This document shows, piece by piece, positions 1 through 5,085 of a DNA stretch of 7,524 nt (position 1 is the stretch's first letter; every line of letters begins with the position of its first letter). Source of the DNA: Candidatus Rokuibacteriota bacterium (lineage in GTDB: Bacteria; Methylomirabilota; Methylomirabilia; Rokubacteriales; JACPHL01); the NCBI GenBank assembly GCA_016188625.1, contig JACPHL010000145.1, positions 1 through 7,524 of the forward strand, in the 5' to 3' direction. Under the pieces are notes generated by a model, which worked only from the letters and a program-made list of their open reading frames with translations, had not been told where the DNA came from and searched no databases. Made by a program: the position numbers and the translations under genes.

Positions 1-259
1 CCTCGATCGCGTCGCCGACCTGCTGCCGACCGGTCTCCAGGAGCTTGGCGCGGACCTGTTTCAACAGCTCGACGCCCTCGGCCTTTACCAACTGGTGTTC
101 GGCCGGCGTCAACACCCCCTTGAGCCGTACGACGACCATGTCCCGGATGAGGTAAGTCTTCACGTCGGTGGGCCCCCGCCCCATGTACTCCCGCTCGAAT
201 TTGACGAGGGCCTGGCTGATCTCTGCTTCGAGCTGTCCCTTCGTCTTCCGGGTCATCAT
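1..259 (-). CDS. MpsC / DUF2294 family protein (partial, 3' end outside window)
   Basis: The window holds the N-terminal 86 codons of a leftward gene that continues past base 1. The translation begins MMTRKTKGQLEAEIS and contains YMGRGPTDVKTYLI (about residues 25-38) and VVRLKGVLTPAEHQL (about residues 42-56). I recognise this as the MpsC family (formerly DUF2294, Pfam PF10057), small soluble proteins of roughly 120 residues. Family naming links them to a sodium-translocating, membrane-potential-generating system, but their biochemical role is poorly established. Two adjacent ATG codons (257-259 and 254-256) are possible starts. A GGAGGG lies upstream but about 14 bases from the first ATG, which is rather far. 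The gene has its own promoter (329-357) and is divergent from a cation antiporter gene. The family call is recognition from sequence; any functional link with the antiporter is inference. Confidence 0.8.
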   Translation of the reverse strand, partial: MMTRKTKGQLEAEISQALVKFEREYMGRGPTDVKTYLIRDMVVVRLKGVLTPAEHQLVKAEGVELLKQVRAKLLETGRQQVGDAIE

Positions 260-428: not shown

Positions 429-457
429 TTGACAATGGTCACGAAATCACCTATGGT
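429..457 (+). promoter_or_regulatory. sigma70-type promoter for the antiporter transcript
   Basis: A perfect TTGACA (429-434), a 17-base spacer and TATGGT (452-457, four of six consensus positions) form a good sigma70-type promoter. The predicted transcription start is near 464. That leaves a leader of about 130 bases before the supported ATG at 594, with an intrinsic terminator inside it. Confidence 0.65.
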
Positions 458-520
458 TAGGTCGTACCGGCGGATCTGCCAGAGGGCAATTTCCTCAGGG
501 AAAGGGCCAGCTGGGATATA

Positions 521-562
521 GGTCGGTGGGACGTCCCGTGGGGCGTCCCGCCGGCCTTTTTT
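521..562 (+). terminator. intrinsic terminator inside the antiporter leader
   Basis: The 5' arm GGTCGGTGGGACG (521-533) pairs with the 3' arm CGTCCCGCCGGCC (544-556) over 13 bp, with two G-U wobbles and a 10-base loop. Six T residues follow immediately (557-562). It lies about 57 bases downstream of the predicted transcription start and 31 bases upstream of the ATG, so it would block expression of the gene behind it unless it is prevented from forming. Confidence 0.75.
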
Positions 563-580
563 GTCGTCCAAAAAGACCGG
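551..580 (+). promoter_or_regulatory. hairpin overlapping the terminator U-tract
   Basis: CCGGCCTTTTT (551-561) can pair with AAAAAGACCGG (570-580), with one mismatch and an 8-base loop. It uses the last six bases of the terminator's 3' arm plus the T-tract, so the two structures are mutually exclusive. Forming it would disarm the terminator and leave the ribosome binding site at 584-588 free. The pairing is seen in the sequence; the regulatory role is inferred. Confidence 0.4.
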
Positions 581-583
581 AAC

Positions 584-588
584 GGGAG
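584..588 (+). promoter_or_regulatory. ribosome binding site deciding the antiporter start
   Basis: GGGAG sits five bases before the ATG at 594. The reading frame is also open from a TTG at 561, but that codon is made of the terminator's T-tract and has no ribosome binding site. The ATG at 594 is therefore the better start. Confidence 0.7.
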
Positions 589-593
589 ACACG

Positions 594-1934
594 ATGATAT
601 CGGACATGCATGGAAGAGCTGGTGGCGGGGACGGAGACCGCCGATGGGGGGGCCACGCGATCTGGATGGGGTCCGCGTCCGCCCTCGCCCTGCAATGGCT
701 CATGATCCGGGGGAGCGGGCTCCACCTCCCACCCGCCCTCGAGGCCCTCTCCTCCGGGGCGGGGATCCTCGGCGCGGCCTTCATCCTCTCGTGGGCGGCC
801 GAGGTGGCGCAGCTCGACATCCCGCGAAGCCTGGCCATCGCCGCCCTGGCTATCATCGCGGTCCTGCCCGAGTATGCAGTGGACCTCTACCTGGCTTGGC
901 AAGCCGGCCGCGATCCCGCCTACGTGGGATATGCGACGGCGAACATGACCGGCGCCAATCGTCTCCTCATCGGCATCGGCTGGGCGGCGCTGGTCCTCGT
1001 CCTCTGGCTCAGGAGTCGGGCCAGGGAGACGGAGATCCGCCTCGAGCCTGGCCATCGGGTCGAGCTGCGCTACCTGCTCCTGGCGACCGCCTACTCCTTC
1101 GCGATCCCCGCGAAGGGCACGCTCTCCTCCCTGGACGCGGTGGTGCTCCTCGGCCTCGCGGGCCTCTACTTCCGGGCGGTCGCGCGCCAGCCGATGGAGC
1201 CACCTCACCTGATCGGGCCGGCGGTCCTCATCGCGCGGCTCGGGACTTCCCCTCGGAGGGGGATCACCGCGGCCATGTTCCTGTTCTCCGGGCTCGCCAT
1301 CCTGCTGGCCGCGGAGCCCTTTGCCGAGTCCCTGATCGCCACCGGAAAGCTACTCCGAGTTCCGGAGTATCTGCTCATCCAGTGGTTGGCGCCCCTGGCC
1401 TCTGAGTCCCCGGAGTTCATCGTCGCGATTCTGTTCGTTCTTCGCGGCAGCGCGACGGCCGGCCTGGGGATCTTGCTATCGTCCAAGGTGAACCAGTGGA
1501 CGCTGTTGGTCGGGGCCCTCCCCGTCGCTTACTGCGTCTCCTTGGGGCGGATCTCGGGCATGCCGCTCGATGCCATTCAGGTGAAGGAGATATTCCTGAC
1601 TGCCGCCCAGTCCCTGTTCGGGGTCATGGTCCTCGCTTCCTTCTCCTTGTCCCTGAGGGAAGCCGGGCTCCTCTTCGTCCTGTTCTCCGGCCAGCTCCTC
1701 ACCCAACTCCTTCCCCAGATGCTTCCGGAGCTGTTCGCCGGGATCCCGGGCTTCGCCTTCACGGCGGGATACGTGTTTGCCTACGCCTATCTCGGGTTCT
1801 CCGCTGTCCTCCTGGGCACGAGCCCCGACACCCGGCGGGGCATCCTGGGTCTCATCAGGCGACCGCTCGAGGGCCCGGCGCCTGGCCACGCCATCAGGCA
1901 TCTGCCGAGTCCGGGAAGGAAGAACCTGTCCTAA
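594..1934 (+). CDS. CaCA-type sodium/calcium exchanger family membrane protein
   Basis: This is a 446-residue polytopic inner-membrane protein with roughly ten hydrophobic segments, of the Ca2+:cation antiporter (CaCA, PF01699-like) superfamily. Two internally repeated signature regions are visible. The first has LPEYAVD (91-97) and [11 protein letters not shown] (117-127). The second has SESPEF (270-275) and [12 protein letters not shown] (296-307). In this superfamily the acidic residue after Pro and the Asn-containing helix of each repeat line the cation site; here these would be E93, N117/N122, E274 and N300. A basic, Gly-rich N-terminus precedes the first membrane segment (about 22-38), and a basic tail (about 413-446) follows the last. 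The ion pair exchanged (Ca2+, Na+, K+ or H+) cannot be read from the sequence. The gene is preceded by an attenuator-like leader and followed after 19 bases by the zinc-finger gene, so the two are probably cotranscribed. Confidence 0.85.
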
Positions 1935-1953: not shown

Positions 1954-2403
1954 ATGGCCCCCCCGCGATTCACTGGCCAGGATGAAGAGTCGCTCGCGCG
2001 GTTGGAGTTCGAGCGGGCGTGCCAGGCGATATCGGCGCGCCGCGGCGAACGCGCGGCTGTCAGCAGGCGGGTGGCGAGGGCTTACGGGATGCTCTGCCCT
2101 CGATGCGGGAGCGAGCTCGTGCGGATCCGGTACCGGGGCATCGAGCTCGACAAGTGCTCGGCGTGTGAGGGGATCTGGGTCGGTCGCTCGGACCTGGAGC
2201 GGCTGGAAGCGCCTGGGGACTCCTTCGTCTCAGGTATGCTGAAGATCTTCCGTGGGCTGGATCCGGGGACCCGAGGCGACCGAGAACTGGACCATGACCG
2301 GCCCTTGCCAGGTGAGGCCACCGTGCTGGGACGACTTGGCGCGCTCTTGGGGATAGGGATGATCCTCGGGATTCTCGTCTGGACGTTCTTCTTTAGTCGC
2401 TAA
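1954..2403 (+). CDS. zf-TFIIB domain protein with C-terminal membrane anchor
   Basis: This is a 149-residue protein. The start is fixed by GGGAGGTG six bases before the ATG at 1954. Residues 48-85 form a TFIIB-like zinc ribbon (Pfam zf-TFIIB, PF13453): CPRCG (Cys48, Cys51), then CSACEGIWVGRSDLERLE (Cys68, Cys71 and the typical G-x-W after the second pair). The N-terminal 45 residues are charged and probably helical. Residues about 128-147 are a single hydrophobic segment ending three residues from the C-terminus, so the protein looks tail-anchored with the zinc finger in the cytoplasm. Bacterial proteins with this domain have no well-defined role. The gene follows the antiporter by 19 bases and probably shares its transcript. 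A role in assembly or control of the antiporter is only a guess from position. It converges with the response regulator gene, with 11 bases between the stops. Confidence 0.8.
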   Translation: MAPPRFTGQDEESLARLEFERACQAISARRGERAAVSRRVARAYGMLCPRCGSELVRIRYRGIELDKCSACEGIWVGRSDLERLEAPGDSFVSGMLKIFRGLDPGTRGDRELDHDRPLPGEATVLGRLGALLGIGMILGILVWTFFFSR

Positions 2404-2414
2404 AGAGCTGCTAC

Positions 2415-3814
2415 CTAACCCGGCCCGCGGCGGCTCCGGGGGCCCTCCCGCCGGAGCCCGAGGAGGGCGATCTTGGCCTGGAGGGTGTTCCGGTGCAGCC
2501 CGAGGACCCGGGCCGTCTGGGTCTGGTTCCAGTCCGTCCGCTCGAGGGCGCGGAGGATGAACTGCTGCTCGAACTGCCGGCGCGCCGCCCGGAGGGTCCC
2601 GGCCGCCCCCCCGCCCTGCCGGCCCACCAGGAGATCCAGGGGGAGGTCCTTGGGCGAGATCACCCCGCCGTCGGTGAGGGCCACGGCCCGCTCGATGACG
2701 TTCTCCAGCTCCCGGACGTTGCCCGGCCAGTCGTACCGCTCCAGGGTCGCCAGGGCCGGCTTGGTGAGCCCGCGCACCGGCTTGCCGAACTCGCGGGAGT
2801 ACTTCGCCAGGAAGTGCCGCACCAGGAGCGGGATGTCCGAGCGCCGCTCGCGGAGCGGGGGGACGTGGATGGTGACGACGTTGAGCCGGTAGAAGAGGTC
2901 CTCGCGGAAGCCGCCCTCGGCCACCACCCGCCGAAGGTCGAGGTTGGTGGCGGCGACGATCCGGACGTCCACCTTCACCCCGTGCGTGCCGCCCACGCGC
3001 TCGATCTCCCGCTCCTGGAGGGCCCGGAGGAGCTTGGCCTGCAGGTCCATGCGGAGGGCGCCGACCTCGTCCAGGAAGAGGGTCCCGCCGTGGGCCAGCT
3101 CGAACTTCCCCGGCTTCCGCGCGTAGGCCCCGGTGAAGGCCCCGCGCTCGTGGCCGAAGAGCTCGGACTCGAGGAGCTCGGCGGGGATGGCGGCGCAGTT
3201 GACCGCCACGAAGGGGCGCTCCCGGCGGGGGCCGTGACGATGGACGGCGCGGGCGATCAGCTCCTTGCCCGTCCCCGACGCGCCGGTGACCAGCACCGTA
3301 ACCGGGGTGCGGGCCACGTGGGCGATCACCTCGTAGATCTTCGCCATCGCCCCGCTCTGCCCGACCAGGTCCTCGAAGCCGTGCCGGCGCGCGAGCTCGC
3401 CCCGGAGGTAGAGGACCTCCCGCTCCAGGGCCCGGCGCTCCACGGCCCGGCGGACCACGGCGCCGAGCTCCTCGAAGTCGAAGGGCTTGGTGAGGTAGTC
3501 GTAGGCCCCCAGCTTCATCGCCTCCACGGCCGTCCTGACGGTCTTGACGGCCGTCACCAGCACGACCTCGACCGCGTCGTCGAGGGCCTTGACCCGCTGG
3601 AGGACCTCGAGCCCCTCCATCCCGGGAAGCCGGATGTCCAGCAGGACGAGGTCCACCGGCCGGCTCTCGACCACCTGGAGGGCCGAGGGGCCGTCCGGGG
3701 CCTCGAGGACCTCGTAGGCGTCCCGGAGGTATTCACGCAGGGTCGCCCGCACCGCGTCCTCGTCGTCCACCACCAGGACGACCGGGCGGGGCGAGCCGTC
3801 CGTGGGCTCCGGGC

Positions 3815-3818
<4 letters not shown>
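2415..3818 (-). CDS. NtrC-class sigma54-dependent response regulator
   Basis: This is a 467-residue cytoplasmic transcription activator with the full three-domain layout. The receiver (about 12-125) has acidic pocket D18/D19, phospho-acceptor D61 in LVLLDIRLPG, T89 and K111 (TKPF). The AAA+ sigma54-interaction domain (about 150-385) has Walker A GASGTGKE (179-186, Ala where Glu is usual), the sigma54-contacting GAFTGA loop (226-231) and Walker B LFLDE (247-251). A Fis-type helix-turn-helix (about 425-455) contains NQTQTARVLGLHRNTL. The GTG start at 3818 overlaps the protease stop as GTGA, pointing to translational coupling, with AGGGG five bases upstream. The frame stays open another 300 codons upstream, but that stretch is antisense-like noise over the protease gene. 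No histidine kinase is in the window, so the signal is unknown. No -24/-12 promoter was seen nearby to suggest autoregulation. Coupling to an envelope protease makes a stress-response role plausible but unproven. Confidence 0.93.

Positions 3819-5085
<1,267 letters not shown>

Follow-up and report, generated by a model that had tools for sequence, protein, structure and literature searches.

Several bacterial leaders are controlled by a protein: in the LicT/SacY-RAT, PyrR, TRAP and ANTAR (EutV) systems an RNA element and a terminator exclude each other, and the regulator gene lies beside its target leaders. In transcriptional riboswitches, including Na+-I (DUF1646 motif, PMC9337991) and the Li+ classes, a short structured 5′ element has a P1 helix that shares sequence with the terminator, and some members lie upstream of cation transporters. 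In Staphylococcus aureus, mpsC occurs with inorganic-carbon transport genes; MpsAB is a Dab-type bicarbonate transporter whose function is independent of mpsC, deletion of mpsC gives no growth phenotype, and 5% CO2 lowers the expression of mpsA (PMC6689103).

The leader analysed here lies in an entire contig of a metagenome-assembled genome (the window, 7,524 nucleotides), whose closest named relatives are Candidatus Rokubacteria, and has something in common with each of these systems. It shares with the protein-controlled leaders an element and terminator that are mutually exclusive and a neighboring candidate regulator gene, but its RNA fold differs from those known for them, and MpsC (PF10057), the putative binding protein, lies outside the LicT/SacY, PyrR, TRAP and ANTAR protein families. 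It differs from the Na+-I and Li+ classes in having no Rfam match, near-universal linkage to mpsC and mainly inorganic-carbon targets. The S. aureus MpsABC system differs in that MpsC has no known role there and no leader of this RNA family was seen at a staphylococcal plasmid mpsC locus. Terminator-based attenuation is known as a kind, whereas the RNA class, the MpsC link and the probable signal appear new: we found no description of this leader family, of a DUF2294 riboswitch or of a bicarbonate riboswitch in the open-access literature searched, and the main texts of motif surveys make no mention of these carbon genes.

The leader and its RNA family

Features of the window are listed in Table 1. 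The promoter and the terminator ahead of the coding start, both part of the original prediction, hold up well. The promoter is the sole sigma-70-like site in positions 300-1200 (0.1 expected), and 24/35 family members have a promoter scoring 9/12 or better in the 60 nt ahead of them (1.7 expected). The terminator forms 17 pairs, including G-U, over 520-557 with a T-run after (0.2 expected), and folds at -34.9 kcal/mol (z -7.0); folding of the leader beats that of shuffled sequence (z -4.2). The downstream gene does encode a cation antiporter, of the Na_Ca_ex type, and the short gap behind it suggests that the zinc-ribbon gene probably shares its transcript. Antiporter orthologues at two other loci (L041 and L042), 74-76% identical, carry the same promoter, element and terminator.

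Table 1. Features of the window, with the parts of the RNA element
Feature	Position	Strand	Remarks
mpsC (DUF2294/PF10057)	2-259	-	truncated by contig end; divergent from leader; proposed trans-acting partner
Sigma-70-type promoter TTGACA-17-TATGGT	429-457	+	predicted start ~464-466, at the element's first helix
Conserved RNA element (putative sensor/binding domain)	466-527	+	covariation in 29 leaders
Helix P1	468-471/522-525		element
Two pairs inside P1	474-519, 475-518		element
P2	479-482/511-514		element
2x2 AG/AG loop	483-484/509-510		element
P3	485-487/506-508		element
Variable tip	490-503		element
Intrinsic terminator	520-562	+	stem 520-536/541-557, then T-run
Na_Ca_ex (PF01699) cation antiporter	594-1934	+	putatively controlled gene
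Zinc-ribbon protein (PF13453)	1954-2403	+	19 nt 3′ of antiporter ORF

The leader belongs to a conserved RNA family. A DNA search for relatives gave one real match besides the window itself, the remainder being short chance matches. A covariance model (R1) built from the leaders of the window, L041 and L042 found eight more in the same class, and a second (R2), built from 11 leaders, extended the family to other phyla, AT-rich genomes among them; folds predicted independently for these show the same architecture. The final alignment (A8) holds 29 leaders from several phyla, and about 10 more were found. The weakest leaders are those of L107, L109 and L120. A search of the phylum of genome G218 gave no additional members. 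The loci L076-L081, L084 and L131-L136 were rejected as terminator-driven; those that were read, which exclude L135 and L136, lack the core motif. Since a later model (R3) scores some of these rejected loci at 26-40 bits, bit score alone is no proof of membership. A weak leader-like match at L064 (1242-1316, minus strand) is very GC-rich and precedes a 6-phosphofructokinase-like ORF.

The suspicion that the leader matches no known riboswitch class held up against Rfam. At gathering score, the Rfam 15 covariance models gave no matches in the window, only tRNAs in 15 related loci and no match over the leader in 14 others; at E 10 the leader drew nothing relevant, only chance matches.

In the consensus element P1 is followed by a G-A mismatch and then by two covarying pairs (A-U/G-C and C-G/U-A); a 3x3 loop leads on to P2, and a 2x2 loop, usually AG/AG, separates P2 from P3, beyond which comes a variable tip. 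In A8, which was fitted to a model holding P2, P3 and the terminator and is biased towards those three, 93.5% of element hairpin cells are paired, with 76 double-change cells (21 shuffled) and a covariation score of 0.606 (0.194 shuffled, at most 0.107 with slid partners), and the terminator, whose T-run is conserved, is paired in 97.6% of cells, with 79 double-change cells (25 shuffled) and a score of 0.728; the double-change counts are inflated by relatedness, which the slid controls retain. The fitting model contained neither P1 nor the two pairs inside it; most members have P1 paired, and covariation is seen at the inner pairs.

P1 (A8 columns 4-6 with 98-100) overlaps the 5′ arm of the terminator (columns 96-105). 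Since this arm and the 3′ strand of P1 share sequence, the TAR-GCC stretch, the terminator and the complete element cannot form at once. The idea of mutually exclusive pairings around one terminator was right in kind but not in the competing pairings named. One of these, between the 5′ end of the RNA and the 3′ arm of the terminator (467-473/548-554), is present here and arises because CCGG is self-complementary; it is not conserved, being paired at 64.3% against 63.7% shuffled, with no covariation. In the conserved alternative the 5′ end pairs instead with the terminator's 5′ arm (468-471/522-525). The other, a hairpin at 551-580, can be drawn in this sequence and is missing from the two closest orthologous leaders.

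Both alternative structures covary in orthologous and related leaders, which strongly supports, at the level of comparative sequence, the view of the leader as a regulated terminator with an RNA absent from Rfam. A constitutive terminator, passing a fixed fraction of transcripts or making a small RNA, with the hairpin conserved for RNA stability, would suit the very strong terminator but would need no conserved, covarying element in competition with it, and we rank it as the least likely of the explanations weighed here.

Linkage to mpsC and the genes behind the leaders

The leader follows mpsC, not the antiporter. Among leaders found by RNA models alone, 14/17 adjoin mpsC, and for the other 3/17 the contig stops after 74-134 nt. 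PF10057 was found in 22/388 genomes and strong leaders in 10/388, with both in nine; PF10057 in 9/10 leader genomes against 22/388 overall has a hypergeometric probability of ~1e-11, kinship ignored. The PF10057 search placed mpsC directly upstream of the leader on the same strand in genomes G218, G180, G025, G019, G033, G076, G089 and, twice, G085. When loci were found by protein search only and then read downstream, the leader appeared behind most canonical mpsC genes: a strict core-motif regular expression placed it at most 300 nt downstream of mpsC in 14/28 loci (0.014 expected per locus), and at these loci, found blind to the RNA, the model search adds leaders beyond the strict motif's 14/28. 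In a held-out case R3 found genome G534, where the leader lies 36 nt behind mpsC and PEPCK comes next. A divergent layout of mpsC and leader is seen in the window, L041, L042 and L105. Divergent PF10057 proteins (L108, L110, L112, L114) have no leader, and no leader was found in genomes of the window's class that have the antiporter and lack mpsC. At L048 a tandem pair of leaders (1328-1422 and 1501-1589, plus strand) separates mpsC from the gene that follows; the first of the pair is weaker and has no clear T-run.

Such linkage alone fits a binding partner or a co-regulated gene alike. Protein-dependent antitermination calls for a candidate regulator gene that regularly accompanies the leader, and mpsC does so; it mostly lies upstream, out of the position controlled by the leader, while the downstream genes vary.

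Those genes were assigned by Pfam/NCBIfam. They encode PEPCK-GTP (L101, L103, L113, L130), PEPCK-ATP (L087), DUF4914 (PF16260; L102, L104, L107), gamma-carbonic-anhydrase/CcmM-like proteins (L116, tested and below curated cut-offs; L117-L119, alike by eye), beta-carbonic anhydrase (L121, L122), the Sbt_1 protein SbtA (L127, Anoxybacillus), DabA (L047), biotin carboxylase (L109), argininosuccinate synthase (L111), an ABC permease of TauC/nitrate type (L105), a lactate/oxalate MFS protein (L125), spermidine synthase (L123), GreA/Rnk-like proteins (L123, L124), chorismate synthase (L085), TerC (L082) and Usp (L073). About 14 putative targets handle CO2 or bicarbonate directly, a raw count from a grouping made by our own judgement. 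The window antiporter, TerC, Usp, chorismate synthase and spermidine synthase have no evident carbon link.

Some further recurrences were seen at these loci. Two proteins recur behind leaders in the window's class, at L048, L049, L061/L062 and L063: a small MWPFGK zinc-ribbon-like protein and a divergent paralogue resembling MpsC (PF10057; scores, where taken, of 27-34 bits), the latter counted among the putative targets at L048, L049 and L061. GreA/Rnk-like proteins are among the putative targets at L123 (2313-2413, minus strand), L124 and L115, and one such gene sits between leader and mpsC. DUF4914, a family with no function assigned so far, has a P-loop-like stretch, GASGGGKSE, reminiscent of PEPCK.

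The original prediction looked to ion transport and an ion riboswitch, an idea that finds no support here, as the leader tracks mpsC and its relatives control mainly inorganic-carbon genes. A riboswitch for Na+, Ca2+, Mn2+ or Li+ controlling an ion antiporter would account for the three family members before Na_Ca_ex antiporters and the one before TerC, a metal-ion-linked family, and would recall the former naming of the mpsC family as Na+-translocating. Yet the Rfam models for Na+-I, Li+, Mn2+, NiCo and fluoride riboswitches fail to match the leader even at E 10, most targets are not ion transporters, and distant antiporters have no leader; we judge such a switch highly improbable. More promising is the fallback offered at the time, a protein or trans-acting signal, and MpsC is the obvious protein.

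MpsC as a candidate switch protein

In the mechanism that we propose, the nascent RNA would by default form the terminator, and transcription would stop before the antiporter gene. With the 5′ element folded and P1 closed, the 5′ arm of the terminator would be occupied and read-through would follow; since closed P1 blocks the terminator, stabilization of the element should turn the gene on. MpsC, encoded next door, would most likely hold or release the element; it would work in trans, on every leader at its locus, and would itself respond to inorganic carbon (CO2/HCO3-). Action in trans is favored because mpsC is the constant neighbor over unrelated targets and is usually not under the leader, the layout of a regulator with its site, and the recurring inorganic-carbon theme makes CO2/HCO3- the likeliest signal. 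The response of S. aureus mpsA to 5% CO2 also speaks for the model. That a trans-acting MpsC, responsive to CO2/bicarbonate, switches the leader RNA is in our view about as likely as not.

Against this model stand the lack of a recognized RNA-binding fold in MpsC, the dispensability of mpsC in S. aureus, the missing leader at the staphylococcal plasmid locus and the several targets with no evident carbon link. The predicted MpsC structure (pLDDT 84) gave weak matches only in fold searches, some to ribosomal protein uL23, with no recognized RNA-binding fold and no clear family, which is no evidence for a new fold; a PDB sequence search found nothing. Viral contigs searched for MpsC relatives gave none. 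The very large genome of an uncultured phage (595 kb; LR756511, L128; match 2501-2838) does hold a gene like mpsC, which seems to be divided between two frames and has no leader. In OR849901, a 5,872-bp record under the name Staphylococcus phage SA 1298 Kay, mpsC is present at 3633-3962; this record may be host DNA deposited as a phage.

The main alternative is a classical riboswitch. Its element would itself bind a small ligand, such as bicarbonate or a CO2-linked metabolite, or would respond to pH, and mpsC would just be one more gene of inorganic-carbon physiology that stays close by. The compact, highly structured 5′ element, its conserved internal loops, the P1/terminator overlap as in transcriptional riboswitches, an RNA start apparently at P1 and the common theme among targets would all agree with this. 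It would not explain why the leader is tied to mpsC irrespective of the target, with mpsC mostly preceding it; moreover, a ligand that stabilizes P1 would turn genes on, yet SbtA, DabA and carbonic anhydrase would be expected on at low inorganic carbon. We regard the riboswitch as rather unlikely on balance.

Returning to control by MpsC, a tentative reading, with odds a little short of even, is that MpsC (DUF2294) represents a new family of RNA-binding transcription (anti)terminators; together with this leader it would let many bacteria adjust their genes for carboxylation, carbonic anhydrase and bicarbonate uptake to CO2/HCO3-. The linkage offers a candidate function for the widespread MpsC family, and mpsC, together with a leader ahead of genes for SbtA, DabA, carbonic anhydrases, biotin carboxylase and PEPCK, makes a directly testable circuit. 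Should the RNA alone respond, it would be the first inorganic-carbon riboswitch as far as we know. The leader family may be a means by which many bacteria sense inorganic carbon.
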